A stretch of DNA of 48,929 nt from Nitratireductor alexandrii. GTDB lineage: Bacteria > Pseudomonadota > Alphaproteobacteria > Rhizobiales > Rhizobiaceae. The notes below the pieces were generated by a model. The model saw nothing but the letters and a program-made list of their open reading frames with translations. It was not told the DNA's origin and made no database searches. This document shows positions 25,398 to 43,740 of the stretch, in pieces. The position numbers were made by a program, and so were the translations under genes. The stretch's first letter is position 1; each line of letters begins with the position of its first letter. The stretch is taken from contig NZ_RBVY01000013.1 in NCBI RefSeq assembly GCF_004000215.1, positions 1 to 48,929 of the forward strand, in the 5' to 3' direction.

Positions 25398-25428
25398 TTG
25401 AACCTCTAGCCTCTATAGGGACTACACC
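25398..25428 (+). promoter_or_regulatory. MerR-type operator/promoter, site 1
   Basis: -35 TTGAAC (25398-25403), 19-bp spacer, -10-like TACACC (25423-25428). The dyad ACCTCTAG-CCT-CTATAGGG (25402-25420) sits in the spacer. It precedes the methyltransferase-like gene by about 80 bases. The long spacer is the hallmark of MerR-activated promoters. The -10 is weak. Confidence 0.75.
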
Positions 25429-25507
25429 CTCCGCCAATGCACAAGGCTGCATTTGTGCTGGCTTCCAGCGTAGGGAACGCCCCTGCGCCATTTGCGGGGT
25501 GTCCGAA

Positions 25508-26059
25508 ATGCTCACCATTACCTTCTTCATCACCGTCACATCCGCAGCGCTTCTGGTTGCGCTGCTGTTCTGGTCCATCGCGAAACCGGCCCAGCGTGTG
25601 TGGCCGCCTCCCTCCGGGCAGGCGGGATGGCAGTTCTGGCTGGTGTGGGTGCTGATCGGCCTGTTGATCATCGGAACGCTTTACATCGGTATCGTCGACT
25701 ACGGCAGTCTAGGACTGGCTGCATTGCACTGGCGCGTTGCCGGCGGCGTGTTGCTGGTTCTGGGCAATGGGTTGGCCTGGTGGGGTGTCGTCGTCCTCGG
25801 TGCAAGGCCGACCACCGGACTGGCCGGCGAACTCGTGACTGGCGGCCCCTACCGGTTCACACGCAATCCCCAATACATCGGCGACATCCTCATCATCGCC
25901 GGCTTTGTGCTTGCGGCTAATTCCTTGCTCGCATTGTGGCCGGCGCTTTTGGCGATGATCAGCGCATTCATCGCGCCGTTTGCCGAGGAACCCTGGCTTG
26001 AAGCGCGGCTTGGCAACGCCTACTCCGACTATAAGCGGCGCGTTCGACGCTTCATCTGA
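25508..26059 (+). CDS. Isoprenylcysteine carboxyl methyltransferase-family membrane protein
   Basis: 183 residues from ATG 25508 (GTG 25499 adds three). Four or five hydrophobic helices, then the catalytic region LVTGGPYRFTRNPQYIGDIL with the GPY-x-x-x-RNP-x-Y motif and EEPWLEARLGNAYSDYKRRV near the C-terminus; all are standard for the ICMT/PEMT group, which uses S-adenosylmethionine. Bacterial members often lie in metal-resistance loci, with unknown substrates, probably small molecules or lipids. A MerR-type operator (25398) precedes it and another (26087) separates it from the P-type ATPase, so each has its own metal-responsive promoter. A decayed relative is at 8060. Confidence 0.85.
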   Translation: MLTITFFITVTSAALLVALLFWSIAKPAQRVWPPPSGQAGWQFWLVWVLIGLLIIGTLYIGIVDYGSLGLAALHWRVAGGVLLVLGNGLAWWGVVVLGARPTTGLAGELVTGGPYRFTRNPQYIGDILIIAGFVLAANSLLALWPALLAMISAFIAPFAEEPWLEARLGNAYSDYKRRVRRFI

Positions 26060-26086
26060 GACCGCTTGAAAACTTCGCATCGGGTC

Positions 26087-26117
26087 TTGAACCTACAGTT
26101 GCTAGAGGTCCTATCTT
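26087..26117 (+). promoter_or_regulatory. MerR-type operator/promoter, site 2 (zntA)
   Basis: -35 TTGAAC (26087-26092), 19-bp spacer, -10 TATCTT (26112-26117). The dyad is ACCTACAG-TTG-CTAGAGGT (26091-26109). Start of transcription would be near 26125, about 65 bases before zntA. Confidence 0.88.
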
Positions 26118-26188
26118 GGAAGGACCAATCAGAGTCGACCGCGGAACGGTGAAACGCAACCTCAGCCGACGCGGGACAGGAGACAACG

Positions 26189-28528
26189 ATGCTCACCGAA
26201 AAAGAACACAATCACGAAAGCCCTCAAGGGCACGAGCGTAGGCATTCTCACGACGGCCAAGCGTGCTGCGCTACCGACATGCCTGAGGCCTCGATGGATG
26301 CCAATGGGCGCAGCTTTCAGGTCAGCGGTCTCGACTGTGCCGAGGAAGTGGCGATCCTGAACCGCGTTGTCGGACCGGTGGTCGGCGGTGCCGAGCATTT
26401 GGCCTTCGACGTGATCAACGGTCGGATGACGGTGCTGGAGACGGCAAATCCCGCCTCCGACGATAAGATCATAAAGGCGGTTGCGGGAACCGGGATGGGC
26501 GCGCGACCTTGGAACGCCGACAATGCCGAGGCCGACCGCGCCGTGCACCTAAGAAAACAGGCGCGGTTCACCGCGGTCAGTGGCGGCTTCTGGGCGGCAG
26601 GGTTCCTGTATCACATTGTGGAGACCGGGCTGGGCGGTGCGCTGGGGCTGTTCGCGGGCCACGGCGAGGCGGCGATGCCGCTGGTCGAAGCAGGTCTGTT
26701 CGGCCTCGCTATCGTATTCGGCGTCTGGCTGGTGGCGTCCAAGGCATGGTCCTCGGCGCGGCGTCTGTCGCCGGACATGAACCTGTTGATGGTCATTGCC
26801 GTTGCCGGCGCCGTCGGCCTGGGCGAATATTTCGAGGCCGCGACTGTCGCTTTCTTCTTCGCGCTGTCGCTCTATCTCGAAAGCTGGAGCGTGGGGCGCG
26901 CGCGCAATGCCGTCGCGGCGCTTCTCGACCTTGCGCCGGCCACGGCGCGGGTGATCCGCAGCGACGGCACCGAGGCGGACGTGCCCGCGGCCGAGGTTGT
27001 CGTGGGTGACCGATTCGTAGTGCGCGGCGGCGACCGCATCCCGCTCGACGGCGAGGTGACGGATGGGGCGGGTGCGGTCGATCAGGCTCCGATCACGGGC
27101 GAGAGCGCGCTGGTCCCAAAGGAGGCGGGCGACGAGGTCTATGCCGGCACCATCAACGGCGAGGGCACGCTGACGGTGCGCGCTACCAAACCCGCATCGG
27201 ACAGCACCCTGGCAAAAATCATCCGCATGGTCGGCGACGCGCATTCGCGCCGGGCGCCGGTGGAGCAGTGGGTGTCGAAATTCGCTCGCATCTATACCCC
27301 GATAGTGATGGTGGCCGCCGTCGCCATCGCGCTGCTGCCGCCGCTCCTTATGGGTGCGGCGTGGAGCTTCTGGATCTACAATGCGCTCGTGCTGCTGGTC
27401 ATCGCCTGCCCGTGCGCGCTGGTGATCTCGACGCCGGTCTCCATCGTGGCGGCGCTCACTGCCTCGGCACGGGCGGGCGTGTTGATCAAGGGCGGCGCCT
27501 ACGTCGAGGCGCCGGGACGCACCACGGCGCTGGCGCTCGACAAGACCGGCACGATCACCGAAGGCAAGCCCGAAGTGGCCGCCGTGCATCCGCTGGGCGG
27601 CACGTCGGAAGCCGACCTGGTGGCCGTTGCCGCGTCGCTCGAGGCCAGGTCGTCGCATCCGCTCGCGCAGGCGATCCTCGCCCATGCAGGCAAGGACGTG
27701 ACCGCCGCCGAGGATACCCGCACCGTGCCAGGCCGTGGCATCGAAGGCCGATTCGACGGCCGCACCGTCTGGCTCGGGTCTGACAGGTTCGCCGCCGAAA
27801 AGAGTTTTGGCGCCGCAATCCCCGTCGACCTGCGCGACCGCATCGAAGGGGCGGGCGCAACCATGGTCGCCGTCGGCGACGACTCCGGCGTTCTGGGCCT
27901 GCTGGAACTGCGTGATCGGATCCGGCCGGATGCACGCGGAATCGTTGCACAGCTGCACAAACAGGGCGTGAAGAAGATCGTCATGCTTACCGGCGACAAC
28001 GACCGCACCGCCCGCGCCGTCGCCGCCGAGGTTGACATCGACGAGGTTCGCGCCGAACTGCTGCCCGAGGACAAGGTCGCCGCCATTACGGAGCTGGTGA
28101 CGACCCACGACATGGTCGCCATGATCGGCGACGGGGTGAATGACGCCCCGGCCATGGCCCGCGCCCACTACGGCATTGCTATGGGCGCGGTGGGCTCGGA
28201 CGCGGCGATCGAGACGGCGGATATCGCGCTGATGACTGACGACATCGGAAAAGTGCCATGGCTAATCGGCCATTCGCGGCGCACCATGTCCATCATCCAC
28301 CAAAACATCGGTGTCTCGCTGGCGACCAAGGCCGTCTTTGTCGGCCTGACCGCCTTCGGCATGGCCTCGATGTGGGGCGCGATCGCGGCGGATGTCGGCG
28401 TGTCGCTGCTCGTGGTGGCAAATGCGCTACGTCTGCTGCGGCCTAGCGCGGAGACGATGTTCACGAGGGAACGTCTGGAGGGCGCCGTCGATTCCATGGT
28501 CGTCGGCCAGATCACGCACGGCCACTAG
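26189..28528 (+). CDS. zntA: ZntA-type P1B-2 ATPase (Zn/Cd/Pb export)
   Basis: 779 residues, ATG 26189 with ACAGGAGA upstream. The N-terminus is His-rich (HNHESPQGHERRHSHDGQAC), followed by an HMA-like domain with VSGLDCAEEVAILNRVVG, which keeps one cysteine instead of CxxC. Eight helices follow with TGES in the actuator domain, CPC at 407-409, DKTGT at 451 and GDGVNDAPAMAR at about 647. The last helix pair has DVGVSLLVVANALRLLR, the P1B-2 aspartate that marks zinc, cadmium and lead pumps rather than Cu(I). The MerR-type operator upstream is typical of zntA/cadA/pbrA. It drives divalent metals from cytoplasm to periplasm. Confidence 0.95.
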   Translation: MLTEKEHNHESPQGHERRHSHDGQACCATDMPEASMDANGRSFQVSGLDCAEEVAILNRVVGPVVGGAEHLAFDVINGRMTVLETANPASDDKIIKAVAGTGMGARPWNADNAEADRAVHLRKQARFTAVSGGFWAAGFLYHIVETGLGGALGLFAGHGEAAMPLVEAGLFGLAIVFGVWLVASKAWSSARRLSPDMNLLMVIAVAGAVGLGEYFEAATVAFFFALSLYLESWSVGRARNAVAALLDLAPATARVIRSDGTEADVPAAEVVVGDRFVVRGGDRIPLDGEVTDGAGAVDQAPITGESALVPKEAGDEVYAGTINGEGTLTVRATKPASDSTLAKIIRMVGDAHSRRAPVEQWVSKFARIYTPIVMVAAVAIALLPPLLMGAAWSFWIYNALVLLVIACPCALVISTPVSIVAALTASARAGVLIKGGAYVEAPGRTTALALDKTGTITEGKPEVAAVHPLGGTSEADLVAVAASLEARSSHPLAQAILAHAGKDVTAAEDTRTVPGRGIEGRFDGRTVWLGSDRFAAEKSFGAAIPVDLRDRIEGAGATMVAVGDDSGVLGLLELRDRIRPDARGIVAQLHKQGVKKIVMLTGDNDRTARAVAAEVDIDEVRAELLPEDKVAAITELVTTHDMVAMIGDGVNDAPAMARAHYGIAMGAVGSDAAIETADIALMTDDIGKVPWLIGHSRRTMSIIHQNIGVSLATKAVFVGLTAFGMASMWGAIAADVGVSLLVVANALRLLRPSAETMFTRERLEGAVDSMVVGQITHGH

Positions 28529-29680: not shown

Positions 29681-29905
29681 ATGGAGATCGGTCCAGGATC
29701 ACGTCCTGCAAGTCTGGTGGATCGCCTCCTCGGCTATTCCGTAGTGCTCCAAATTATCCAATCTGCTTTTCAATCCCGAATCCGGCAGAGCAACAGAGCA
29801 ACCGGACCTGAGCGGGTCTTGCTCAGGAATCATATGAGGACAGCGGGAGTGCCGGCCGAACTCGCCGCACGACGCGAAGCATTCGTTAAAGGTCTGACGA
29901 GGTGA
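29681..29905 (+). CDS. Possible small hypothetical protein
   Basis: 74 residues from ATG 29681 in the otherwise non-coding 29653-30090. The N-terminal half has a mildly hydrophobic stretch (LLGYSVVLQIIQSAF), and the end is charged (AELAARREAFVKGLTR). No family is recognised, and there is no clear ribosome site. It could be chance. The rest of this gap holds the MerR-type promoter of the ctaG operon and a leader of about 125 bases. Confidence 0.25.
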   Translation: MEIGPGSRPASLVDRLLGYSVVLQIIQSAFQSRIRQSNRATGPERVLLRNHMRTAGVPAELAARREAFVKGLTR

Positions 29906-29925
29906 AACGGTCGCACAGCGGATGC

Positions 29926-29956
29926 TTGAACCTAAAGCCGCTAGAGGTTGTACGAT
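29926..29956 (+). promoter_or_regulatory. MerR-type operator/promoter, site 3 (ctaG operon)
   Basis: -35 TTGAAC (29926-29931), 19-bp spacer, -10 TACGAT (29951-29956). Dyad ACCTAAAG-CCG-CTAGAGGT (29930-29948). It leaves a leader of about 125 bases before the ctaG start at 30091, in which I see no convincing structure. Confidence 0.88.
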
Positions 29957-30744: not shown

Positions 30745-31421
30745 GCAGCAGGGGTTTGAGAGTCCTTTCGGGTTTTCTGGCCGCTGTCGCTTTGGTGCTG
30801 GCGGTTGCCCTCGGTGCTGCATACGTAATGCGCGGGCCGTCGCCAGGCTTGATGGCCAGCCAGCCGAAGCAGGACACATTTGCAGAGCCGGGCTCAGTCC
30901 CCATAGGCGGACAGTTTTCCCTCGTCGATCACACGGGCAAGACCGTCACCAACGACGACTTCGCCGGAAAGCTACGCCTCGTCTTTTTCGGCTTCACGAA
31001 CTGTCCCGACATATGTCCGACTACGTTGGCCGAAATCGCGCGAACTATCGAACTGTTGAAGGACGATGCCGATGCCGTGGCATATCTTTTCGTAAGCCTC
31101 GATCCGGATCGCGACACGCCGGAGGTCATGGCTGAGTATGTGAAGGCATTCGACAGGCGCATCACCGGTCTAACCGGGACGGTTGATCAGGTCGACGCCA
31201 TGGCGGGCACATATCGGGTGGCGTATGAGAAGGTCGGAATGGACGGCGAAGCCTATCAGGGCAGTGGCGATTACCTCGTGAGCCATCAAGGCAACACATA
31301 TCTGATGTCGAGATCCGGCGATTATCTCACGCATTTCAGCTACGGCACCGCTCCGGAGGAGATGGCCGAGACGATCCGCGAGGCCATTGCCAGATTCGGC
31401 GGTGCGGGTGGGGAGACATGA
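30741..31421 (+). CDS. SCO1/SenC-family copper chaperone, second copy
   Basis: 226 residues from ATG 30741 (overlaps the ctaG stop). The anchor is LVLAVALGAAYVM, then FSLVDHTGKTVTNDDFAGKL, VFFGFTNCPDICPTTLAEIA with Cys 88/Cys 92, DPDRDTPEVMAEYVKAF and YLVSHQGNTYLMSRSGDYLT with the ligand histidine. All SCO copper residues are kept. The related copy at 14016 lies in a separately controlled operon. Being between ctaG and PCuAC it should load CuA of the terminal oxidase, completing a set that serves both CuA and CuB. Confidence 0.95.
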   Translation: MSSRGLRVLSGFLAAVALVLAVALGAAYVMRGPSPGLMASQPKQDTFAEPGSVPIGGQFSLVDHTGKTVTNDDFAGKLRLVFFGFTNCPDICPTTLAEIARTIELLKDDADAVAYLFVSLDPDRDTPEVMAEYVKAFDRRITGLTGTVDQVDAMAGTYRVAYEKVGMDGEAYQGSGDYLVSHQGNTYLMSRSGDYLTHFSYGTAPEEMAETIREAIARFGGAGGET

Positions 31422-31885
31422 CCGTGCGCGCGCATCCTATCGGCTTGCTGAGCTTGTTTGTGCTCGCGTTCGCGATTCCGGCGTGGGGACAGGATGGAGC
31501 TGCCATCTTCGTCCAGCAGCCGTGGGCGCGCGCCTCCATCCTGGCCTCGCGACCTGCGGCGGCCTACTTGACCATCCTGAACAAGGATGATCGCCCCGCC
31601 ACTCTCGTTGCGCTGGAGACTCCCGTCGCAGGCCGCGCGGAGGTTCACCGCACGGTCAAGCAAGGCGATGTCATGAAGATGGTGCCGGCCGGACCAATCG
31701 AGGTGCCTGCCGGTGGGAGCGTTCGCATGGAGCCGGGCGGGTATCATGTCATGCTCATGGATCTGGAGCGGCCGATTGAGAAGGGAGAAACACTCAAGCT
31801 CACGCTGCGTTTTGCGAACGCATCTCCAATCGCGGTTTCCGTGCCGGTTTTGGGGCCAGGCGCCAGAGGACCGGAGGACGATTAG
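31418..31885 (+). CDS. PCuAC periplasmic copper chaperone, second copy
   Basis: 155 residues with a signal peptide (IGLLSLFVLAFAIPAWGQDG). QQPWARASILASRPAAAYLT is the entry motif. The ligand set H-x10-M-x21-H-x-M is complete: VHRTVKQGDVMKM and EPGGYHVMLMDL. It overlaps the SCO stop by four bases and abuts the next gene. As in the 14 kb operon it should pass Cu(I) to SCO or directly to CuA. Confidence 0.95.
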   Translation: MTVRAHPIGLLSLFVLAFAIPAWGQDGAAIFVQQPWARASILASRPAAAYLTILNKDDRPATLVALETPVAGRAEVHRTVKQGDVMKMVPAGPIEVPAGGSVRMEPGGYHVMLMDLERPIEKGETLKLTLRFANASPIAVSVPVLGPGARGPEDD

Positions 31886-32386
31886 ATGACGGCGATGGAG
31901 TTTTGGCACGCGGTCGCCCGCAGTGGCGGAGCGCGGTTCAAAAAGGCGGTCCCGGCGCTAGCGGCGGGCCTCGTCTTTGTGCTCCAGCAGACGCCGTCTC
32001 AAACACTGGCGCACAGTTACAAGCTCGACGATATCGCGGTCGGTCATGTCTGGGCATCCCCACCCGAGGAGGGTGCCGGGGGTATCGCGGTGTACGGCCC
32101 GATCCTCAATCGTGGCGACAAGAGCGCGCGGCTCGTCGGAGCCTCGAGCCCACTGGCTGAGGATGTTGGCTTTCGCATTTCAAAGGACGGTGAGGTAAAC
32201 TGGCTCGAATTCATCGAGTTGCGTCCAAACAAGCCCGTGTCACTTGCCGCGTGGCGAGAACACATCTGGTTGTCCGGAATGCGCGACTCCGTCGAGCAAG
32301 GCGACAGCTTCGAGGTGATCCTGGATTTCGGGGATGAAGGTAAGCTGCCGGTCAAAGTTATCGTTGAAGATGAGGGTGGACATTAG
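31886..32386 (+). CDS. PCuAC-fold protein lacking most copper ligands
   Basis: 166 residues; the ATG follows the TAG of the PCuAC gene directly. A signal segment (FKKAVPALAAGLVFVLQQTP) ends near TLAHSYK. The fold matches PCuAC: DDIAVGHVWASPPEEGAGGI, then IAVYGPILNRGDKSARLVGA and REHIWLSGM. Aligned by eye to its neighbour, the first His and Met of the site are gone (region EDVGFRISKDGEVNWL) and H-x-M has become H-I-W, so only one of four ligands remains. It may act as a partner or scaffold of the true PCuAC, or bind something else. The conserved gene order argues it is functional, not decayed. Confidence 0.8.
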   Translation: MTAMEFWHAVARSGGARFKKAVPALAAGLVFVLQQTPSQTLAHSYKLDDIAVGHVWASPPEEGAGGIAVYGPILNRGDKSARLVGASSPLAEDVGFRISKDGEVNWLEFIELRPNKPVSLAAWREHIWLSGMRDSVEQGDSFEVILDFGDEGKLPVKVIVEDEGGH

Positions 32387-32431: not shown

Positions 32432-33487
32432 CTATATCCGTTCGGAAATCAGTTTCACGATGGCACCAGCATCGCGACCGGCGCCCATGATGAGGGCCGA
32501 GGCGCGATTGCGCTGCCATGGTCTGCCGACGAAGAACAAGTTCGGGACCGGCGAAACGCCGTTCGTGTGGGCGAAAGAGCCGTCCGGGTTCTTGGCGGCC
32601 GAAATCTGCACCCAATCGCTATCATCGCGGTAGCCTACGGCCCAGATGACGGAGCCAATTTCAGCTTCGCCGCCGTCAGCGAATTTCGCGCGCGTTCCCG
32701 CAGCTTCCGTGAGACGGGGCTTCAGTCGAACGCCCTTGCGTGCGAGGCTGTCGAGGCTGCGGTCGCGATCGGGAAACGGATCGGTCCGCCGCATCAGCCG
32801 CCCGACAGCCGAGCCCGCAGGCGCACGCATGAGCCCAGACCAATGGAGCCACCACCAGATGCTCTTTCCCAATAGGCGTTCCGGGAACAGCTTGCGCGGC
32901 CTCCCTACCGCAAGCAAGGTCGGGCGACTGGGGACAAGCTCGGCGGCAATGTCCCGACCGCTTGCGCCGTCACCAACGATCAGGGCCACCCCCTCGGGCA
33001 CTGAGGCCGGATCGCGATAGGTGTCGGCAGCCAATTGCGTCACCGCAGTCCCGAAGCCAGCGGCGATTTTCGGGACGAGAGGAATCTGAAATCCGCCCGT
33101 CGCGATGACGACATACGTGGCTGCCAGAACCTCGCCACTCTCCAAAGTGGCCTCGAATTCCCCGCCACCCGACCGCTGCAGCCTGACGACGCGTGAATTC
33201 AGCCGCAACGGCAGATTGAACAGACGCGCATACGCTTCAAGGTAGTCGGCGAACTCGTCGCGAGTCGGATAAAGTTCGCGGTTGCCTGGAATAGTCGCTC
33301 CCGGCAGCGCGCTGAACTGGCGCGGCGTGAACAGCGTCAGCGACGTATATCTCCTGCGCCAGCTGTCTCCGACGCGGTCGTTGCCGTCGACGATAACGAA
33401 CGGAATGCCTGCCCTGCGCAAGTGGTAGCCAGCAGCGAGCCCGGCCTGACCGGCACCTACAACCAGCACGAAAGGAGGCTTTGTCAA
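32432..33487 (-). CDS. Flavin-dependent monooxygenase-like protein (CzcO/ArsO-like)
   Basis: 351 residues if started at TTG 33487, which overlaps the TGA of the L,D-transpeptidase gene; an in-frame upstream start at 33562 would run far into that gene. FVLVVGAGQAGLAAGYHLRR is the FAD-binding Rossmann motif, ALIVGDGASGRDIAAELV the NADPH-binding one, and SVIWAVGYRDDSDWVQIS the usual ATG-like loop. This is the CzcO/ArsO group of pyridine-nucleotide flavoproteins common in metal-resistance islands, substrate unknown. It is the last gene of the dsbA-PPIase-L,D-transpeptidase operon on the minus strand. Confidence 0.85.
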   Translation of the reverse strand: MTKPPFVLVVGAGQAGLAAGYHLRRAGIPFVIVDGNDRVGDSWRRRYTSLTLFTPRQFSALPGATIPGNRELYPTRDEFADYLEAYARLFNLPLRLNSRVVRLQRSGGGEFEATLESGEVLAATYVVIATGGFQIPLVPKIAAGFGTAVTQLAADTYRDPASVPEGVALIVGDGASGRDIAAELVPSRPTLLAVGRPRKLFPERLLGKSIWWWLHWSGLMRAPAGSAVGRLMRRTDPFPDRDRSLDSLARKGVRLKPRLTEAAGTRAKFADGGEAEIGSVIWAVGYRDDSDWVQISAAKNPDGSFAHTNGVSPVPNLFFVGRPWQRNRASALIMGAGRDAGAIVKLISERI

Positions 33488-34044
33488 TCGACAACAACCT
33501 TTGCTCCAACCGGGACGCGCTCGAACAGGTCTTCGACATGTTCGTTCAGCATTCGGAAGCACCCGTTGGACACGGCTTTACCGATCGACGACGGTTCGGT
33601 GGTGCCGTGGATGCGGTACAAAGTGTCCTGGCCGTCGCGATAGAGGTACAGCGCGCGTGAACCGAGCGGATTGTTCGGGCCGCCCGGTACACCATCCGCA
33701 TATCGCGCATATTTTCCGGGATTGCGTCTGATCATGTTGTCGGTCGGACGCCAACTGGGCCACTTCGCCTTGCGGCCGATTTCGGCAGTGCCGGAAAAGG
33801 CGAGACCCGCCCGGCCGACCCCTATCCCGTAGCGTCGAGCGATATTCTTCGACTCGATCAGATAGAGGAAGCGGTTCGCCGTATCGACGACGATCGTGCC
33901 GACAGGATATTCCCGTGCGAAATCGACCTCTTGTGGCAGGAATTGAGGGGCAAGCGCAGTCCCTGTTTCCGGATGGGCCGCCGCGCCCTGCACGGCGGCG
34001 AACAGCGCGAAAGAGGTGAGCAGGAATTGCCTTCGATTGAGCAT
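33484..34044 (-). CDS. L,D-transpeptidase (YkuD), secreted
   Basis: 186 residues, ATG 34044 with GGGGGAC upstream. Signal peptide at FLLTSFALFAAVQGAAAH, preceded by RR (Tat-like). The YkuD domain includes GTIVVDTANRFLYLIESKNI, RRYGIGVGRAGLAFSG, and the catalytic pair His 146 and Cys 162 in LYRIHGTTE and AVSNGCFRML. These enzymes make 3-3 peptidoglycan cross-links or attach proteins to it. The gene sits after a PPIase and DsbA in one operon behind a MerR-type promoter. L,D-transpeptidases have a copper-sensitive catalytic cysteine, so extra copies in a metal island are notable. Confidence 0.94.
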   Translation of the reverse strand: MLNRRQFLLTSFALFAAVQGAAAHPETGTALAPQFLPQEVDFAREYPVGTIVVDTANRFLYLIESKNIARRYGIGVGRAGLAFSGTAEIGRKAKWPSWRPTDNMIRRNPGKYARYADGVPGGPNNPLGSRALYLYRDGQDTLYRIHGTTEPSSIGKAVSNGCFRMLNEHVEDLFERVPVGAKVVVD

Positions 34045-34076: not shown

Positions 34077-34961
34077 TTAGTGGTCGTGACCGTCGTCCGC
34101 GGCTGGCGGCGTCACGTCTGGCACCAGCTTTTCGACTTCGGCTTCTGCCCGAAGCTCCCCAATGATGCGCTGCTGCTCCGCCGCCTGAAGCGATTGACGA
34201 ATCTGAGGTGCGACGGTTTCGAACTCCGGCGCCGGCTGCTGCCGCCTCTCTTCCGCCTTCAGCACATGGTAGCCGAAGGAACTGCGGACCGGCTCGGCGG
34301 TGTATTCATCGACCTGCAGTTTCGCGGCGGCGGCGTCGATCTCCGGAAGCGACTGGCCGGCCGCGACGAAACCCAGATCACCCCCTTTAGGCTTCGAGAC
34401 CGTGTCCTTGGAACGTTCGCGCGCGAGAACGGCGAAGTCCTCGCCGGCGTTCAGCGCCTCGATGACCGCGGCCGCAGCCTCTTTGGTATCCAGCAGGATG
34501 TGCCGAATCCGGGTTTCCTCAACGCGGGGCATGCGCGCGACTTGCGCCTCGTAGGCGGTCCTCACCGCCTCTTCCGTTACAGACGCGGAGATCTGCTCGC
34601 TGATGAAAACGGAACGCAGCGTTTGCTGCTCCAGGAACGCCATTCTGCGCTTGAAGGACTCGTCGCCGGCAATTCCCCGATCTCGCGCCTCGTTTGCGAC
34701 GATGCGCAGGTCTATCAGTGCATCGACGAGAACCGAGCGCCTTGCATCATCGGGCATGGAGCCCAGTTGCTGCGCGTACATCTCTTCGGCAACTGCCAGC
34801 TCCGACGCTGTGATGTCTTGGCCGTCGACACGCGCCACAATCTCCTCCTGCTGAGCAAGGACGGCGGGGCTGGCCGTCATGGCCGCAGCGAATACGATTG
34901 TTGCAGCAATGATGCCGCGCGATGCGGAGCCGAATCCGGAAATGATCGTCATCTCATGCAT
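34077..34961 (-). CDS. Periplasmic parvulin-type peptidyl-prolyl isomerase
   Basis: 294 residues from ATG 34961 (AAGGAG upstream). Signal peptide ends at SPAVLAQQ. A SurA-like N-domain (IVARVDGQDITASELAVAEE) precedes the parvulin domain: EETRIRHILLDTKEAAAAVI, FAVLARERSKDTVSKPKGGD and RSSFGYHVLKAEERR. The C-terminus ends in DDGHDH, a possible metal-binding tip. PpiD/SurA/PrsA-type proteins help folding of outer-membrane and secreted proteins. It lies 11 bases after dsbA and 32 before the L,D-transpeptidase, so probably assists folding of exported enzymes under metal stress. Confidence 0.93.
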   Translation of the reverse strand: MHEMTIISGFGSASRGIIAATIVFAAAMTASPAVLAQQEEIVARVDGQDITASELAVAEEMYAQQLGSMPDDARRSVLVDALIDLRIVANEARDRGIAGDESFKRRMAFLEQQTLRSVFISEQISASVTEEAVRTAYEAQVARMPRVEETRIRHILLDTKEAAAAVIEALNAGEDFAVLARERSKDTVSKPKGGDLGFVAAGQSLPEIDAAAAKLQVDEYTAEPVRSSFGYHVLKAEERRQQPAPEFETVAPQIRQSLQAAEQQRIIGELRAEAEVEKLVPDVTPPAADDGHDH

Positions 34962-34972: not shown

Positions 34973-35599
34973 TTATTCGGCAACCAAGAGAGGGTCGATG
35001 ATTTCGCTGAATCGCTCGAGGCTGAGCACGCCCTTGAACATTTCGCCGTTGACGAAGAAGGTCGGTGTCGAGTCGACGCCGTACGACTTGCCCGTGTCAG
35101 CGATGGCCGTGATCTTGTCCAGCAGGTCTTGATCCTGGAGACAGGCTTCAACCTGCTCACCCTCCATGCCCGTCATGCCCATGATCGACTTCAGAGCCGA
35201 GGTCGCGTCGGAAACCCGGGCCCAGCGGTCCTGCGAGCGATAGAGCAGGTCGAGCGTCGGGTACCATTTGTCCTCGCCGGCGCACCGTGCCAGCATGAAA
35301 CCGGCCGAGGCGCGCGGGTCGAACGGGAACTCGCGTATGATGAAGCGGACCTTGCCCGTGTCGACGTACTTGACCTTGAAGTCGGGCCAGACCGTCATAT
35401 GGAAATTGCGGCAATGACCGCAGGTCAGCGACGCGTATTCAATGACGGTCACGGGTGCGCCCGCATCTCCGAAACTTTTCTCGGGAAGCGGACCGGGTGC
35501 CAGCAACTGCTGCTGCGTGGGCTGAGCGAACAGCGGAAGCGGATTAATGCCGGCGACAGCAAATACGGACGCACCTGCAAGAAAATGACGGCGTTTCAT
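34973..35599 (-). CDS. DsbA-like thiol oxidoreductase
   Basis: 208 residues from ATG 35599 with GGAGATG upstream. MKRRHFLAGASVFAVAGI is a Tat-type or Sec signal. The thioredoxin domain has VTVIEYASLTCGHCRNFHMT (Cys 60/Cys 63, CGHC) and YGVDSTPTFFVNGEMFKGVL with the cis-proline. CGHC with a helical insert is the alphaproteobacterial DsbA2/DSBA-like group (as ScsC or BdbD). It is the first gene after a MerR-type promoter (35625-35655), followed by the PPIase and L,D-transpeptidase. Confidence 0.93.
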   Translation of the reverse strand: MKRRHFLAGASVFAVAGINPLPLFAQPTQQQLLAPGPLPEKSFGDAGAPVTVIEYASLTCGHCRNFHMTVWPDFKVKYVDTGKVRFIIREFPFDPRASAGFMLARCAGEDKWYPTLDLLYRSQDRWARVSDATSALKSIMGMTGMEGEQVEACLQDQDLLDKITAIADTGKSYGVDSTPTFFVNGEMFKGVLSLERFSEIIDPLLVAE

Positions 35600-35667: not shown

Positions 35668-36396
35668 CTAGACAATGGAACGGGCGCCATGGCGAACGAT
35701 GATGGGCGAGGGGGTGGGCACGCGCTTGTACAAATCTATGATGTCCTGGTTCATAAGGCGCACGCAGCCACTCGAAACCGCCTTTCCGATCGTCCAGTAT
35801 TCGGGCGTGCCGTGGACTCGGTAGAGGGTGTCCTCGCCGTCCTGGAAAATATACAAGGCGCGTGCGCCGAGCGGATTGAGGAGGCTCGGTGCCATTCCCC
35901 CATTCTCAGCGCTGTATTTCTCCAGTTCCGGCTGTCGCGCTATCATCTCGGCTGGCGGCGTCCATGACGGCCATTTCTGCTTCCATTGGATCACGCCGCG
36001 TCCCGACCATTCGAACCCGGCACGACCCAGGCCGACGCCATAGCGCATGGCCTTGCCTCGGGGCTGGACCAGATAAAGAAAAAAGCGTCGCGTATCGACA
36101 ACGATCGTCCCCGGCCGTTCGCCGGTGGGGTCATCGACGAGTTGGCGGTAAAATCGCTTGTTGACCTTCGAGATATCCACCGCGGGTATCGGAAACCTCT
36201 CGTTCGGCATCGCCGCATACATTGAAACATAGGACCGGTCCGGCTGTGGCTCCGGCTCGGCCGTGTTCTCGCCGTTCGTTGTCGTACAGCCTGAAACGAC
36301 GAATGCACCTGCGGTACTTGTTATGCCGGCGAGGAAGGCGCGGCGCTTCGGGTCGAAGTGGATGTCTTTGCTGCTTTTCACGATTTTTCTGCTCAC
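35668..36396 (-). CDS. L,D-transpeptidase (YkuD), lipoprotein-like
   Basis: About 242 residues from GTG 36396 (GTG 36381 is an alternative; no clear ribosome site). RRAFLAGITSTAGAFVVSGC combines a twin-arginine signal with a lipobox-like VSGC, so it may be a Tat-exported lipoprotein. The YkuD domain includes GTIVVDTRRFFLYLVQPRGK, AMRYGVGLGRAGFEWSGRGV, and YRVHGTPEYWTIGKAVSSGC then VRLMNQDIIDLYKRVP, with catalytic His and Cys. It is a close paralogue of the enzyme at 33484 (shared GTIVVDT, RYG-GVGRAG and HGT blocks). Its stop lies 13 bases left of the operator at 35655, on the far side from dsbA, so it is not controlled by it. Confidence 0.9.
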   Translation of the reverse strand: MSRKIVKSSKDIHFDPKRRAFLAGITSTAGAFVVSGCTTTNGENTAEPEPQPDRSYVSMYAAMPNERFPIPAVDISKVNKRFYRQLVDDPTGERPGTIVVDTRRFFLYLVQPRGKAMRYGVGLGRAGFEWSGRGVIQWKQKWPSWTPPAEMIARQPELEKYSAENGGMAPSLLNPLGARALYIFQDGEDTLYRVHGTPEYWTIGKAVSSGCVRLMNQDIIDLYKRVPTPSPIIVRHGARSIV

Positions 36397-36527
36397 GATG
36401 CACTGCGGCTTGCCGCAAGCGGGAACTGTTATCCCGGATGATGACCAGCCTGCGGCGCTCCGGATGGGCCGCGAGACGGGACGTTCGTGTGATCTGGGCA
36501 AGAAGGCCTCGCCCGCGGCGATCGCGT

Positions 36528-36878: not shown

Positions 36879-36950
36879 GCCTCCATTTAATGCACCGGGA
36901 TGGTTAAGCAAAGCCAAATCAATGTGAGATTGGGTGATCGAACGGGAAAT

Positions 36951-37742
36951 ATGGGGTTGAACCTCCAGCGGGATGAGCTCTTACACGAACCTGAAATACA
37001 GACCGGAGATCACTCCTTGGCAGGGACGCAACGCCTCATTGCTGTCGACATCGTTCGTGGCCTCGCGATTGCGGGCGTGGTCCTGTTCCATCTCGTCTGG
37101 GATTTTGAGTTCACCGGCATCATCTCAGGTGTCGCGCAGCATCCCGCTTGGCTGATGTTCGGTCGCAGTCTGGCCGGCACCTTCATGATCCTCGTCGGCG
37201 TCAGCCTCGTTCTTGCACATCGAACGCAGATCAGATGGTCGCCATTCATGCGGCGTCTGAGTATCATCGCCCTCGCAGCGGCGGCCGTCACCGTAGTGAC
37301 GTACCTCGTGTTCCCGGCCAGCTTCGTCTATTTCGGCATCCTTCATGCAATCGCAGCAGCGACGCTGATAGGGGCCCTGTTCATTCGCGCTCCCGCGTCA
37401 CTATGTTTGGCGGCCGGGACTGCAATTTTTGCGCTTCCGTTTTTCTACGAGTCGACAGCTTTCGACACCAGACTGACGGCCTGGATCGGCTTTTTTACCC
37501 AGCCCCCGCCGAGCAATGATTTCGTGCCGATATTCCCATGGGTCGGCCTCACGCTTTTTGGCATGGCGGCGACGAAATGGCTGCTGACCTTTGATCTGGA
37601 ACGATATCTGTCGAGATCGGCGCCGCAGGGTCAGACAGCACGATTCCTGGCGTGGTGCGGGCGCACAAGCCTCGTGATCTATCTCGTGCACCAGCCCGTT
37701 CTGTTGGCTGTCATCGTACCGGTTTCCAGGCTACTGACCTGA
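36951..37742 (+). CDS. HGSNAT-type (DUF1624) membrane acyltransferase
   Basis: 263 residues from ATG 36951; ATG 36900 would add 17 residues but leave almost no promoter space. RLIAVDIVRGLAIAGVVLFH then LVWDFEF is the family opening, with the conserved D-x2-RG and H. Eight or so helices follow; FPWVGLTLFGMAATKWLL and LAWCGRTSLVIYLVHQPVLL are the conserved end motifs. Members are related to heparan-alpha-glucosaminide N-acetyltransferase and move acetyl groups across the membrane to sugars. Together with the L,D-transpeptidases this suggests envelope glycan modification. Substrate unknown. Confidence 0.88.
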   Translation: MGLNLQRDELLHEPEIQTGDHSLAGTQRLIAVDIVRGLAIAGVVLFHLVWDFEFTGIISGVAQHPAWLMFGRSLAGTFMILVGVSLVLAHRTQIRWSPFMRRLSIIALAAAAVTVVTYLVFPASFVYFGILHAIAAATLIGALFIRAPASLCLAAGTAIFALPFFYESTAFDTRLTAWIGFFTQPPPSNDFVPIFPWVGLTLFGMAATKWLLTFDLERYLSRSAPQGQTARFLAWCGRTSLVIYLVHQPVLLAVIVPVSRLLT

Positions 37743-39412: not shown

Positions 39413-39413
39413 G

Positions 39414-40004: not shown

Positions 40005-40216
40005 TGTGACACTCTCCCCAAATTTGCGGGAGAGACGTTAGCTGTTGGAGCTGAAAATCACGCGAAAACAAAGAGTTATAGTTTAATTGAATGAAAATCA
40101 AAGCCCGGCTGTTATCTAAGTCCGTCGTTAACCACGGGTAAGTGCCCTCGAATTCCGTCTATTCGGACTAGCAGCATTGGTCGCCCGTCAAACTGTCCCT
40201 TTAGGTGACCTTTGGT

Positions 40217-40741
40217 TCAAAGACGACCGCTACCTTGGACGCCATCCCCGTTGCCATGGTGATGATCTGTCACAGACGTGCCGGCAGCCAGAAGTGTGGC
40301 GGTTGCCGCAATACGTTTTCCGCTATCGAAAACCAGCGTCAACTCGACAGCATCTCCGGACGAGAGCGCTTCTTTCGGCTGGGTGAGCAATAGATGCACG
40401 CCGCCGGGTCGCATTAAAAGCTCCGCGTTACCGGGAATGGGTAATATACCTTCCACCCGGCGCTTTCTCGCGATACCGTCGTCTTGCTCCATCTTGTAGA
40501 TGGCGACGGACTCGAAAGCAGGGCTTTCAACAGACACGAGGTTTGCCTGCAAGCGTTTCCCGTTCCAGACAACCAAATAGCCCGCTGCGCTCGCCCGTCC
40601 GATAGTTGGCAAGACGATCTCTGCGTGCTCGACCGAGAGCTCGTCGGATGCAGCCTTATGCGATGGCGCTCCTTCGGTAGCGTGTGCCGACGCGATCGGT
40701 ATCAGGAGCCCAAAGACGAGTGTTGGCAAGAGACGTATCAT
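40217..40741 (-). CDS. PCuAC-like protein with altered copper site and His-rich tail
   Basis: 174 residues from ATG 40741 (GGGAGAGC upstream). Signal peptide ends at ASAHAT. The fold follows PCuAC (IVLPTIGRASAAGYLVVWNG; LLMRPGGVHLLLTQPKEALS). At the site, the first His is Tyr (IYKMEQ), the first Met is Lys (IARKRRV) and HxM is HLL, so one classical ligand is left. A terminal HHHGNGDG and an N-terminal SHKAASDELSVEH provide other histidines. It starts about 25 bases after a MerR-type promoter (40771-40801) divergent from merR. A different metal (for example Zn) may be bound by the tail. Confidence 0.8.
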   Translation of the reverse strand: MIRLLPTLVFGLLIPIASAHATEGAPSHKAASDELSVEHAEIVLPTIGRASAAGYLVVWNGKRLQANLVSVESPAFESVAIYKMEQDDGIARKRRVEGILPIPGNAELLMRPGGVHLLLTQPKEALSSGDAVELTLVFDSGKRIAATATLLAAGTSVTDHHHGNGDGVQGSGRL

Positions 40742-40770
40742 GACAGCTCTCCCTCTATGTAATTGGGGTA

Positions 40771-40801
40771 ATCATGTGACCTCAAGCTGCTGGAGGGTCA
40801 A
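40771..40801 (-). promoter_or_regulatory. MerR-type operator/promoter, site 5
   Basis: Minus strand: -35 TTGACC (40801-40796), 19-bp spacer, -10 CATGAT (40776-40771). Plus-strand dyad ACCTCAAG-CTG-CTGGAGGG (40779-40797). Drives the PCuAC-like gene at 40741. Confidence 0.83.
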
Positions 40802-40878
40802 GGTTCATCACGAACTCTGCGGCTTGATAAACGCGTAATCTGTTGCGGCAAATGTTCCCATTGCGGGGTGCCTGCTAT

Positions 40879-40897
40879 ACCTCTAGGTTCTATAGAA
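40879..40897 (+). promoter_or_regulatory. MerR-type dyad, site 6, in front of merR
   Basis: Dyad ACCTCTAG-GTT-CTATAGAA, 27 bases before the merR ATG. The flanking -35 and -10 elements are weak. Similar in bases to site 1. Probably autoregulation of the regulator. Confidence 0.6.
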
Positions 40898-40923
40898 ATC
40901 ATGGAATTGCTGTGAGATCTGTC

Positions 40924-41337
40924 ATGTTGACGATTGGAGACCTGTCCCGGCGCACCGGCGTCAAGATACCGACCATACGTTATTACGAGCAGATGGGGCT
41001 TCTGGCTCCACCCGAGCGCTCGGAAGGGAACCAGCGCCGATACACTCCAGAGGAACGCGACCGCCTTGCATTCATCAAGCATGCCCGCGATCTCGGGCTG
41101 AAGATCGAGGCAATACGCGAGCTGATTGAACTCAGCGGACACCCGAACCGGCAGTGCGTCGATGCGGACCGGATAGCAGCGGAGCAGTTGCAGGCGGTGC
41201 GCGACAAGATCAACAGGCTTCGCCGATTGGAACGCGAACTAGCGCGAATCGCTACCGGCTGCGAAGGCGAGCAGATCAAGGACTGCTACGTGTTCCGCGC
41301 GCTCGCCAGCCATGATCTATGCGACGACGAGCACTAG
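40924..41337 (+). CDS. MerR-family regulator, divalent-metal type (ZntR/CadR/PbrR-like)
   Basis: 137 residues, ATG 40924. MLTIGDLSRRTGVKIPTIRY then YEQMGLLAPPERSEGNQRRY is the MerR helix-turn-helix. Metal cysteines are Cys 78 in NRQCVDADRI (the position that is serine in Cu(I) sensors), and Cys 113 and Cys 121 (ATGCEGEQIKDC, C-x7-C), plus Cys 133 near the end. The set fits ZntR/CadR/PbrR divalent sensors rather than CueR. It is the likely regulator of the ACCTnnAG dyads in this window. The PCuAC-like gene is divergent, sharing the intergenic space with sites 5 and 6. Confidence 0.92.
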   Translation: MLTIGDLSRRTGVKIPTIRYYEQMGLLAPPERSEGNQRRYTPEERDRLAFIKHARDLGLKIEAIRELIELSGHPNRQCVDADRIAAEQLQAVRDKINRLRRLERELARIATGCEGEQIKDCYVFRALASHDLCDDEH

Positions 41338-41402
41338 CTTGGTTGTTGTCTCCTTCACGGGGGTTCGCCGGCTAGGCCGCAGCAAGGGTACAAGTGGCGG
41401 CC

Positions 41403-41915
41403 ATGTCCGAACGAAGCTTCCGAACTGGCGAACTTCTTGTGATGCTGTGTCTGGCAACGCCCGGTGCCTTCGCTGCACCGGGACCCTTCGGTGTCTATCT
41501 GTGGTATCCCGGACCTGGCGTTCCCACGGACGCAGATTGTCGCGACCTGGTGGCCGAGGTCAAACCTTCCATTGCCAAGGCGGAGGATTGGCTGTGGGGG
41601 AGAGTTCCGAACTTCGAGACGGACGAGCTCGAACTGTATCTCATCGTTACGCCAACTCGGATCGAGACGACCTATTCCGCCGAAGGTGATTACGATCGCG
41701 GGAGTGTGACCTGGACAGACAGCGAAGGAGGGGCATACCGGTTCACGCTCGTTCCGGATGAGCATCCCGAAACGAAAATAGCGGGAACGATCGTTTCGCC
41801 GCCGTCCACTCAGGTTACAACGCTGACCCTCAATGGCATTCCGGCGGATCGGGGTACAGTCGTCGAACGAATGACCTACTATTGCCGTTTTCCGGCGAGC
41901 GGACCGGCAATTTGA
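41403..41915 (+). CDS. Secreted protein of unknown function
   Basis: 170 residues from ATG 41403. Signal peptide ends at PGAFAAPG. The mature sequence (FGVYLWYPGPGVPTDADCRD; SEGGAYRFTLVPDEHPETKI; RMTYYCRFPASGP) is beta-rich with two cysteines that may form a disulfide. I recognise no family. It follows the merR gene by 65 bases on the same strand and may be co-transcribed. Confidence 0.6.
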   Translation: MSERSFRTGELLVMLCLATPGAFAAPGPFGVYLWYPGPGVPTDADCRDLVAEVKPSIAKAEDWLWGRVPNFETDELELYLIVTPTRIETTYSAEGDYDRGSVTWTDSEGGAYRFTLVPDEHPETKIAGTIVSPPSTQVTTLTLNGIPADRGTVVERMTYYCRFPASGPAI

Positions 41916-41992
41916 GCCGGCACGCTGGGTGGTCAGGCAACTTGAGTGACGGGGAGGCGGGTCCGACCCATGTCGGCTCACGACTTATATTG

Positions 41993-42457
41993 TCACGTTC
42001 CGCGGGCGCCACGAGCATCTTTTCCCGGCAGATACATGTCCAGCCCCCAAAGCAGCAATCCGAAGAGCAAGTGAGGCACGAAGGACGCGACGATCAGTTT
42101 CGGGCTGATGGACAGGCCGGCAAGGCCCCATCCGACGATAGGGAAGAACACCACCAGGATCACGATCCAAAGTAAGGCGGCGAGACCCAACGCGGCCCAG
42201 ACATCTCGTCGCGGAAGATACCGTACAAAGATCACCGACCAGAAGGTCACGTATACGGTGTGAAACAGCAGCCCGATCGGCAGGGGCAAGGTCCGTCCGA
42301 GCGCGGTCTCCGCAAAAGCTAGCGAGGGCGGCTTCGGGAACGGCGATACACCGGCGGCTGTCAGTGCGAGCATCACCGCGGCGGTGAGAGCGGAAACGAG
42401 GATGCCGATCCCGATAGCTCTCAGCCAGGACCGTCCGGCGTGTTCAGTTGCAGCCAT
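41993..42457 (-). CDS. Four-helix membrane protein of unknown function
   Basis: 154 residues from ATG 42457 with AAGGAGACTCG upstream. Four hydrophobic segments (GIGILVSALTAAVMLALTAA; LLFHTVYVTFWSVIFVRYLP; LGLAALLWIVILVVFFPIVG; LIVASFVPHLLFGLLLWGLD). The start overlaps the end of the small Cys protein gene by 14 bases, so they form an operon under site 7, divergent from the second merR. No known family; a transporter partner of the Cys-rich protein is a guess. Confidence 0.65.
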   Translation of the reverse strand: MAATEHAGRSWLRAIGIGILVSALTAAVMLALTAAGVSPFPKPPSLAFAETALGRTLPLPIGLLFHTVYVTFWSVIFVRYLPRRDVWAALGLAALLWIVILVVFFPIVGWGLAGLSISPKLIVASFVPHLLFGLLLWGLDMYLPGKDARGARGT

Positions 42458-42836
42458 GATCGAGTCTCCTTGTGTCACGCGTTGCCGTGCAACCGCAACC
42501 GGCGTTGCCGGTTTCGCTCGGCAGGAATGGTTCAAAGACCGCGTCCAGCGCGTCGGCGGCGCTCTCGGGCGCCGCGATGGCGAGTGTCACGCTGTCATCC
42601 CCCACTTGGAGCTCGAATCCGAGAAAGGCGCAGCATTGCTGCTCCCGCCGTACCATCTCGCGCACCTGATCAGCATGGTCGCGTCGGTAGGTCAGGATCA
42701 ATCGCAAGCCTTCGCGTTGCGCGTCCAGCAACGCCGCTCGGTTGAGGTCAGCAATCCATGCGAGACGCTCCCTGAACGCGCCGCTCTCCAGCGAGCAGGC
42801 TATTGGAGCCTCCGCCGAAATGTCGGTATTTTCCAT
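42444..42836 (-). CDS. Small cysteine-containing protein under a MerR-type promoter
   Basis: 130 residues from ATG 42836 (AAAGGGATCG upstream); an in-frame ATG at 42869 lies beside the -10 of the promoter and would be upstream of the transcript start, so it is rejected. LRLILTYRRDHADQVREMVR then REQQCCAFLGFELQVGDDSV is a conserved-looking alpha/beta core with a Cys-Cys pair, and the tail carries NAGCGCTATRD. Cys pairs in a metal-regulated gene suggest thiol metal binding. I recall relatives beside merR genes but cannot name a family. Co-transcribed with the membrane protein downstream. Confidence 0.65.
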   Translation of the reverse strand: MENTDISAEAPIACSLESGAFRERLAWIADLNRAALLDAQREGLRLILTYRRDHADQVREMVRREQQCCAFLGFELQVGDDSVTLAIAAPESAADALDAVFEPFLPSETGNAGCGCTATRDTRRLDHGCN

Positions 42837-42869
42837 GACGATCCCTTTCAATTCACATTCGCCATCCAT

Positions 42870-42900
42870 AACCTAGTCCTTCAAGTGACTTTAAGTTCAA
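42870..42900 (-). promoter_or_regulatory. MerR-type operator/promoter, site 7
   Basis: Minus strand: -35 TTGAAC (42900-42895), 19-bp spacer, -10 TAGGTT (42875-42870). Plus-strand dyad CCTTCAAG-TGA-CTTTAAGT (42878-42896). The half-site ACTTnAAG differs from sites 1-6, so the second MerR (42919) may be its own regulator. Confidence 0.75.
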
Positions 42901-42918
42901 CCCTTTGGGATCATCCCG

Positions 42919-43368
42919 ATGACATTCAGAATTGGCGACCTTGCCCGCTGCACCCGCACCAATCCGCCCACCATCCGCTATTACGAGGAGATCGGCCTGT
43001 TGCCGCCGGCCGACCGGCGTGATGGCGGCCAGCGGTGCTACGGGGAAGAGGATCGCCGTCGCCTGACCTTCATCCGTCAATGCCGCGAGTTCGGCTTCCC
43101 GATCGACCAGGTCCGCTCGCTAGTGGCGCTCACGCAGGACAGCGACCGCTCCTGCATGGAAGCGCGCGCCATCGCTGTCGACCATCTGGGCGCGGTGCGG
43201 GACAAGATCGCGGAATTGAGGAAGCTGCAGAGCAATCTCGCGGATTTCGTGCGCCGCTGCGACGCCGCCTGCGCCGGCGGCCCCGGACCTGATTGCACCA
43301 TCCTTCACGACATGGCCGAACCTGTCGCCGGTGCCTCGCGGTCGCCGGGGCGGGAGCAACGCCAGTGA
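42919..43368 (+). CDS. MerR-family regulator, second copy, divalent-metal type
   Basis: 149 residues from ATG 42919. [20 protein letters not shown] then [20 protein letters not shown] is the DNA-binding part. Metal cysteines are Cys 79 ([12 protein letters not shown]), Cys 114, Cys 118 and Cys 126 ([19 protein letters not shown]), the divalent class as well, with an extra cysteine. It faces away from the Cys-protein operon and is followed by a UPF0060 gene whose GTG overlaps its stop. Its dyad differs from that of the regulator at 40924, so the two probably have separate targets. Confidence 0.9.
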
Positions 43369-43697
43369 GCAAGACCGCCGTCGTCTATGCAGCCGCCGCC
43401 TTCTTCGAGATCGCCGGGTGTTTCAGCCTCTGGCTGTGGCTGCGCGAGGGAAAGACCGCATTGTGGATAGCGCCCGGTGCGATATCGCTCCTGTTGTTCG
43501 GCTGGCTGTTGACGCTGGTCGACACAAGCGCTGCCGGTCGAGCTTACGCCGCCTATGGCGGTGTCTATATCTGCGCGTCGCTTCTCTGGCTATGGACGAT
43601 CGAAGGAGTGCGACCTGACCGATGGGATACGTTAGGCGCCGCCATCTGTCTGGTCGGCGCAACAGTAATCCTGTTCGGACCGCGAACGGCTTCCTGA
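43365..43697 (+). CDS. UPF0060/YnfA-family membrane protein
   Basis: 110 residues from GTG 43365, overlapping the merR stop (GTGA). Four helices; [40 protein letters not shown] and [20 protein letters not shown] are the family's conserved blocks ([14 protein letters not shown], RWDxxGA). Related to small multidrug-resistance exporters; some members have been tested as drug transporters. Found often with merR genes, thus metal or cation export is possible. It is the last clear gene before the conjugative-element side. Confidence 0.93.
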
Positions 43698-43709
43698 ACT
43701 CGACGGCTC

Positions 43710-43740
43710 TTGCATCTCAAGCTGCTTGAAGGTTCAGAAT
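43710..43740 (+). promoter_or_regulatory. Orphan MerR-type operator, site 8, at the element boundary
   Basis: Plus strand: -35 TTGCAT (43710-43715), 19-bp spacer, -10 CAGAAT (43735-43740). Dyad ATCTCAAG-CTG-CTTGAAGG (43714-43732). It points right, into 43741-44013, where no metal gene follows; the next gene is a conjugative-element protein at 44014. 43741-44013 holds no supported gene. Confidence 0.6.

Follow-up and report, generated by a model that had tools for sequence, protein, structure and literature searches.

A 31-bp operator-promoter element of the MerR type recurs along a metal-resistance island in contig NZ_RBVY01000013.1 of Nitratireductor alexandrii (the window: the whole analysed stretch of 48,929 nucleotides), where it precedes genes for metal export, copper chaperones and oxidase assembly, disulfide formation and folding, and cell-wall cross-linking. 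Judged by comparison with related bacteria, a putative dispersed MerR-type regulon comprising zntA, dsbA and SCO-type operons is well supported; membership of the ctaG promoter and of the promoter at 40779, before a PCuAC gene, is weakly supported. It is likely that the CadR/PbrR-like regulator MerR1 (gene at 40924) activates export together with a programme of envelope repair.

As read directly from the window, the element (hereafter box) comprises a -35, the dyad CTnnAG-3-CTnnAG in a 19-bp spacer, and a -10. Scanning both strands with the pattern TTGAACCTNNAGNNNCTNNAGGNNNTANNNT at a threshold of four or fewer mismatches returned the boxes whose positions and mismatches are given in Table 1, and the further matches at this threshold are solely mirror readings of four of these dyads. 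Ten simulated Markov-1 windows yielded no match to the pattern at the same threshold, the reversed pattern matched the real window once, at four mismatches, and none of 3000 random 430-nt stretches of the contig came below six mismatches to the element. An initial annotation, made from the letters alone, had reported eight dyads, all of which are present where it placed them; seven are centred in the 19-bp spacer of a promoter, as it had described, and the eighth, at 40879 in front of merR1, has no -35/-10 frame. Site 43714 fits better on the + strand (TTGCAT-19-CAGAAT), and one more centred dyad, at 36957 (TTGAACCTCCAGCGGGATGAGCTCTTACACG) before an HGSNAT-type gene, had been missed.

A scan of the whole 4.87-Mb genome with the same pattern found 12 places at three or fewer mismatches, one of them the mirror of 29926, leaving 11 distinct places, six of which fall inside 25398-43740; the reversed pattern gave one forward and one reverse match, and the exact dyad ACCTNNAGNNNCTNNAGGT occurs at 26091 and 29930 and nowhere else. 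Among the other places, C1:662141 has a CDF exporter on one side and a MerR gene on the other, C15:9953 adjoins a MerR gene and has genes that we read as mer-like on its other side, and C1:545448 and C37:189387 stand at three mismatches each. Place C23:476166 (two mismatches), which has no sensible target, is taken as chance. The genome holds other copies of ctaG (C1:628858; best upstream match nine mismatches, no box) and dsbA (C1:648099) and eleven L,D-transpeptidase (LDT) matches, two of them on the island; none of the ctaG, dsbA or LDT copies outside the island stands beside a listed place at three or fewer mismatches in this genome.

Across related bacteria, matches to TTGAACCTNNAGNNNCTNNAGGNNNTANNNT at no more than one mismatch occur in 59 of 397 genomes of the order, 130 of 394 of the family and 40 of 385 of the class (own genome included), and reversed-pattern controls gave 0, 1 and 1 in the same sets. 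Inspection covered 67 order-level regions, 60 chosen family-level regions and further stretches, and the census recorded which gene comes first in the 450 bp behind a box, for 166 boxes at two or fewer mismatches, 139 after removal of near-duplicates. This gene is of the CDF type in 37 cases and ZntA-like in 30 (the ZntA query also matches other P1B ATPases), followed by LDT (7), SCO (6), DsbA (6), PEMT (5), u42444 (4), DsbB (2), CtaG (1), PCuAC (1) and three single others. LDT, SCO, DsbA, DsbB, PCuAC and CtaG genes together stand behind 23 of the 139 boxes, where random points placed in these loci would predict 3.9; the 139 still include some relatives, and the near-identical island L148 supplies the CtaG case and one of the DsbA cases. 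The link between export, copper-chaperone and oxidase-assembly genes, dsbA-PPIase (peptidyl-prolyl isomerase) and LDT genes through dispersed promoters, which the initial annotation had drawn from one island, recurs in other genomes, strongly for dsbA and also for SCO, dsbB, LDT and methyltransferase genes.

Whole cassettes recur as well. An SCO-dsbB-dsbA-PCuAC-SCO operon, preceded by a box and with a MerR gene as neighbour, occurs at loci L044, L046, L048 and L178 (Pfam for L044), and lspA genes also lie within such cassettes (L044). DsbA-like proteins with the copper-resistance domain ScsC_N are encoded behind boxes at L146 (5159), L101 (5073) and L066, and the part of the BLAST-unclassified genes that was read also includes further P-type ATPases, CcdA/DsbD_TM directly after a box (L198), HGSNAT (L150), a redoxin (L061) and a transglutaminase-like gene (L093). 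Class-level loci are mostly ordinary CDF/ZntA-MerR pairs; at L286 the order box-SCO-dsbB-dsbA adjoins a MerR gene, whereas at L289, where an SCO-dsbB pair has a MerR gene nearby, the box that was found faces a PEMT/CDF pair. A near-symmetric box, TTGCACCTCTAG-3-CTAGAGGTGCAA, was seen at L251 (3709-3743) between lspA-like and LDT3-type genes and could drive both directions.

The placement before dsbA was followed with protein-guided searches. Among 24 DsbA relatives found in the genome contigs, all eight with at least 57% identity have a box of one to four mismatches 27-68 bp before dsbA; they belong to the Stappia sp. SP245 metagenome-assembled genome, Mesorhizobium sp. Z1-4, M. sediminum, Pararhizobium haloflavum, Microvirga splendida, Rhizobiales 2SD, Boseaceae BT-24-1 and Chelativorans intermedius. 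The distant relatives that were scanned (11 of 16) showed 8-9 mismatches in 600 bp and 7-9 mismatches in 1000 bp upstream of the partial match, and are weak as controls because the protein matches are partial. In the family, a DsbA search matched 243 of 394 genomes, mostly through housekeeping DsbA, and the 30 loci returned comprise 24 of the island type (own included) and six housekeeping ones. The best element match lies 22-34 bp upstream in all 24 island-type loci, with four or fewer mismatches in 16 of them; none of the six housekeeping loci has the element, their best matches standing at 8-9 mismatches and scattered distances. Across seven dsbA promoters from seven genomes, the element is 72% identical on average in ungapped comparison, its flanks 32% and 37%. 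The gene order LDT-box-dsbA-PPIase-LDT, to which the LDT at 35668..36501 belongs on the island, also recurs.

Promoter B is identical in genome G403, taken as Mesorhizobium sp. Z1-4, and promoter C is kept in the Stappia genome, Z1-4 and G680, with diverged flanks in Stappia and G680; the PCuAC/merR1 intergenic region has a box in three of eight other genomes (Z1-4, Stappia and G632). Boxes of both kinds occur elsewhere in some genomes, but nine of 12 island-type ctaG genes (own included) and five of eight other PCuAC/merR1 pairs lack a direct one, and the ctaG and 40779 promoters, counted among the targets by the initial annotation, are weakly supported as recurring targets. Among the remaining ctaG genomes, G714 has a three-mismatch box before an upstream SCO-PCuAC pair, and eight of the 12 have no box. 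By eye, a 40879-like CTnnAG-3-CTATAG dyad lies at merR1 in four of the five boxless PCuAC/merR1 regions; such dyads are recorded for L156, L159, L161 and L250. A decayed island copy at L145 (10296, genome G646) retains a ctaG-type box with no ctaG operon behind it; the ctaG gene of G646 lies elsewhere in the genome, without a box.

Several points weigh against a regulon of this breadth. The three island-type ctaG genes with a direct box are the present one and those of G403 and G680, and the first two islands are near-identical; the boxless PCuAC/merR1 regions stand at 5-8 mismatches, and two of the three boxed ones come from near-identical islands. At dsbA, eight of the 24 elements have 5-7 mismatches and could be weak or dead, the 24 elements amount to 19 distinct sequences and are therefore not 24 independent cases, and G494 carries a frame-broken dsbA that lacks a box (best six mismatches). 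The family loci were selected, not drawn at random, 37 of the 139 boxes precede unclassified genes, and all seven boxes before LDT genes precede LDT3-type genes with borderline YkuD matches (L164, 23.5 versus 23.4 bits). Both MerR proteins of the island score below the curated CadR-PbrR cut-off. In the literature, the studied CadR network of Pseudomonas aeruginosa consists of two targets (PMC12301328), and among the metal salts tested only copper inhibited LDT activity in Vibrio cholerae (PMC11390936), so that re-supply of LDTs against Zn or Cd is without direct support.

MerR1 carries the domains MerR_1 (2.4e-21) and MerR-DNA-bind (6.2e-17). Among the models matched, its best is the curated TIGR02047 CadR-PbrR at 110.5 bits, below the cut-off of 151.45, for which reason it is labelled CadR/PbrR-like and not CadR; the same model is the best for MerR2, at 100.4 bits. 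A cysteine at the CueR Ser77 position, together with a C-terminal cysteine pair, marks divalent-metal MerR sensors, and in MerR1, C78 aligns with CueR S77, and C113 and C121 align with CueR C112 and C120. An assignment of MerR1 to CueR/HmrR was rejected, given Cys78 in place of Ser77 and a CueR model score of 103.6 bits, below both its cut-off of 147.4 and the CadR-PbrR score. MerR1 falls in a clade of 19 (support 0.949), many members of which neighbour LDT, dsb, PCuAC or zntA genes; in this clade plus the protein of L242, C78, C121, H130, C133 and H137 are invariant (20/20), and C113 is present in 19 of 20. MerR2 belongs to another clade, whose boxes share an AAG-TnA-CTTGA core and lie mostly before u42444/u41993 or near ynfA; the core also occurs beside MerR2 relatives in L108, L165, L166, L167, L184 and L296. 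Because this core is distinct, site 42878 was assigned to MerR2, as part of a recurring MerR2/u42444/u41993 module, often with YnfA. The single metal sensor that had been proposed for all eight sites was considered and is not supported, the island having two MerR regulators, and 43714 is an orphan with no recognisable target behind it.

The elements, how rare they are, where they recur and the family of the regulator are observed; for binding, metal identity, induction and purpose, we propose the following working. MerR1 would bind the dyads inside the over-long 19-bp promoter spacers; the CadR palindrome lies in a 19-bp and the ZntR palindrome in a 20-bp promoter spacer (Permina et al. 2006, PMC1526738). 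Once loaded with a divalent thiophilic metal, be it Zn, Cd or Pb, MerR1 would deform the spacer so that -35 and -10 line up and RNA polymerase can fire; the established MerR activation mechanism is stated in PMC1526738 and PMC12301328. The predicted targets are zntA, the CzcN-like methyltransferase, ctaG-SCO-PCuAC-PCuAC, dsbA-PPIase-LDT-flavoprotein, another PCuAC gene and perhaps HGSNAT. MerR1 probably controls its own gene as well, dyad F, mostly kept in two relatives, being probably autoregulatory for merR1. The most likely purpose would be metal export combined with re-supply of poisoned disulfide and folding enzymes, of oxidase copper delivery and of cell-wall cross-linkers with active-site cysteine, a purpose suggested by the envelope thiol or copper chemistry that the targets share. 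MerR2 (42919), which has its own box, would act as a separate, second switch.

The alternative that survives best is one compatible with this working: several overlapping sensors may read the boxes, and the chromosomal MerR at C1:662141 and MerR2 could share sites, which we regard as possible rather than probable. The chromosomal protein, encoded beside a CDF gene, is 60% identical to MerR1 and has the same box class, sites 40779 and 43714 have CAAG/CTTG halves resembling both types, and the MerR2 box is related; however, the MerR2 sites share the distinct AAG-TnA-CTT core, and MerR1 relatives travel with envelope cassettes. It is unlikely that the system is a copper response, in which MerR1 or a related sensor would read copper, SCO, PCuAC, CtaG, Dsb and LDT would repair copper damage, and zntA would be a passenger. 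The target functions are copper-flavoured, as are the ScsC_N genes behind boxes, LDT inhibition is reported for copper (PMC11390936), and Cd/Cu cross-talk of MerR sensors is described in Rubrivivax (PMC11591864), whereas Cys78 is invariant among the relatives where CueR has serine, the pumps behind boxes are ZntA-like or CDF (30 and 37 of 139, with the breadth of the ZntA query noted above), and the best NCBIfam model is CadR-PbrR, not CueR. Least probable is that only zntA and the methyltransferase are regulated, the remaining boxes being relics that were duplicated or taken along with a shuffling island, a view that fits the box retained in the decayed island, the degenerate third of the dsbA elements and the patchy ctaG and 40779 boxes, but not an element conserved while its flanks diverge, its near-fixed distance from dsbA in 24 of 24 loci, or the different gene families and orders behind boxes across genomes.

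For MerR1 as a divalent-metal switch of export and envelope repair, the nearest published systems are the CadR/PbrR/ZntR regulons (PMC1526738), which resemble the island in having a MerR protein with metal-binding cysteines, a palindrome in a long spacer and an exporter behind the box. They usually consist of a transporter plus the regulator, whereas the island adds operons for oxidase copper assembly, Dsb, PPIase and LDT; with boxes before dsbA, ctaG, PCuAC and methyltransferase genes, which recur elsewhere to differing extents, the island exceeds the classical CadR scope of one or two metal-handling targets. In P. aeruginosa, too, a CadR-type sensor controls something other than transport, as binding and induction have shown, but CadR occupies two genome sites there, and its additional target is a zinc-ribbon protein and no envelope enzyme (PMC12301328). 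A Zn_ribbon_TFIIB protein is encoded directly behind the box of L146. The CueR/HmrR copper regulons (PMC1526738) are similar in their dispersed sites and in that their candidate targets extend past the pump to copper chaperones and cytochromes, among others, and differ in serine where MerR1 has Cys78 and in ACCTTCC half-sites; the island boxes have no copA or cueO behind them. In Mesorhizobium, Zn and Cd induce ccdA downstream of cadA, Zn induces signal peptidase II, and thiol-disulfide genes are induced by Zn and/or Cd (PMC3668242), which agrees with the proposed re-supply; CcdA/DsbD_TM stands behind the L198 box and lspA in L044. The available portion of that study mentions a ZntR-like MerR near zntA and no shared operator or regulon, and reads the thiol genes as metal precipitation or binding. 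The initial annotation had called such a regulon undescribed to its knowledge, and no published description appeared among the matches listed in open-licence PMC literature.

Wiring that recurs in related bacteria suggests envelope repair as part of the toxic-metal response. A wider proposal, to which we give an even chance, is that a divalent-metal MerR clade controls an alphaproteobacterial envelope repair regulon, in which export is joined by inducible spare thiol-dependent periplasmic machinery (DsbA/DsbB/CcdA/ScsC-like, PpiC, SCO/CtaG/PCuAC, L,D-transpeptidases, LspA), organized as shuffling cassettes on mobile islands. If this is true, the envelope would be a main target of divalent-metal toxicity, resistance islands would carry replacement parts in addition to exporters, and damage to specific periplasmic proteins by metals would become testable. 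The common view of metal-sensing MerR proteins is that they simply switch a pump; here, a short operator could bring unrelated genes under one regulator in the course of island shuffling, and the scattered Zn/Cd-induced thiol genes of rhizobia may find an explanation.

Table 1. Promoters, dyads and genes of the island (window coordinates; mismatches are to the box pattern).
Feature	Position	Strand	Basis
MerR-type promoter A, TTGAAC-19-TACACC, before methyltransferase	25398..25428	+	1 mismatch
PEMT/ICMT-family membrane methyltransferase	25499..26059	+	Pfam PEMT 8.9e-15
MerR-type promoter B before zntA	26087..26117	+	0 mismatches
ZntA-type P1B ATPase	26189..28528	+	Pfam and NCBIfam
MerR-type promoter C before ctaG	29926..29956	+	0 mismatches
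CtaG/Cox11, second copy in genome	30091..30744	+	Pfam 1.4e-51
SCO1/SenC, start uncertain	30750..31421	+	Pfam 2.9e-47
PCuAC copper chaperone	31418..31885	+	Pfam 6e-37
Divergent PCuAC	31886..32386	+	Pfam 6.5e-14
FAD/NAD(P) flavoprotein, start uncertain, gene 4 after box D	32432..33562	-	Pfam Pyr_redox_3 3.8e-26
LDT (YkuD), gene 3 after box D	33484..34044	-	Pfam 4.7e-22
PpiC-type PPIase	34077..34961	-	Pfam 1.3e-17
DsbA-like thioredoxin (Thioredoxin_4)	34973..35599	-	Pfam 5.5e-40
MerR-type promoter D before dsbA, TTGCCC-19-TACAAA	35625..35655	-	3 mismatches
Second LDT, upstream of box D	35668..36501	-	Pfam 6.5e-20
HGSNAT_cat membrane protein	36900..37742	+	Pfam 2.5e-68
Degenerate box before HGSNAT	36957..36987	+	4 mismatches
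PCuAC-family protein	40217..40741	-	Pfam 3.9e-20, above Pfam cut-off
MerR-type promoter E before PCuAC gene, divergent from merR1	40771..40801	-	2 mismatches
Dyad F before merR1, without 19-bp promoter frame	40879..40897		sequence
MerR1, CadR/PbrR-like divalent-metal-type regulator	40924..41337	+	Pfam, NCBIfam, CueR alignment, tree
u42444 and u41993, MerR2-associated, no Pfam match, divergent from merR2	41993..42869	-	MerR2 neighbours in L165-L167
Promoter G of separate MerR2 module	42870..42900	-	2 mismatches
MerR2, CadR/PbrR-like regulator	42919..43368	+	Pfam, NCBIfam, tree
YnfA/UPF0060 membrane protein	43365..43697	+	Pfam 6.3e-36
Orphan box H, facing DUF3991/Toprim gene	43710..43740	+	4 mismatches; Pfam for gene

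The target identities given in the initial annotation agree with Pfam. The methyltransferase is one that we take to be CzcN-like. The PCuAC protein at 40217..40741, described earlier as degenerate, presumably has, by our reading, an incomplete or partly lost Met/His metal motif, yet still scores above the Pfam cut-off. The true start of the HGSNAT_cat gene probably lies after the 36957 box, which has a near-identical counterpart in the Stappia genome and a two-mismatch relative before HGSNAT in P. haloflavum; in G557, a box lies 33 bp before HGSNAT.

Further metal and redox genes lie at 9120-23489 of the window, namely cytochrome c, redoxins, another SCO and PCuAC, a multicopper oxidase, a CDF transporter and a ZIP-like protein (below its cut-off), and no box at five or fewer mismatches accompanies them. 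The host is related to Mesorhizobium, and the island is probably mobile. A megablast of positions 29900-44000 against plasmids found matches in four records, two from Nitratireductor and one each from Chelativorans and Pannonibacter, that cover only 2% of the query, and at this coverage no ready annotated plasmid relative is available. Much of the island is found in the Stappia sp. SP245 genome and Mesorhizobium sp. Z1-4 (L248 and L249) at about 82-98% protein identity (about 82-97% for Z1-4), and its presence in both, one labelled as another genus, points to recent transfer or mis-binning. The 220 bases at 43781-44000, at the island edge, are 89-92% identical to Nitratireductor, Chelativorans and Pannonibacter plasmids, which suggests that a plasmid or mobile backbone starts there.

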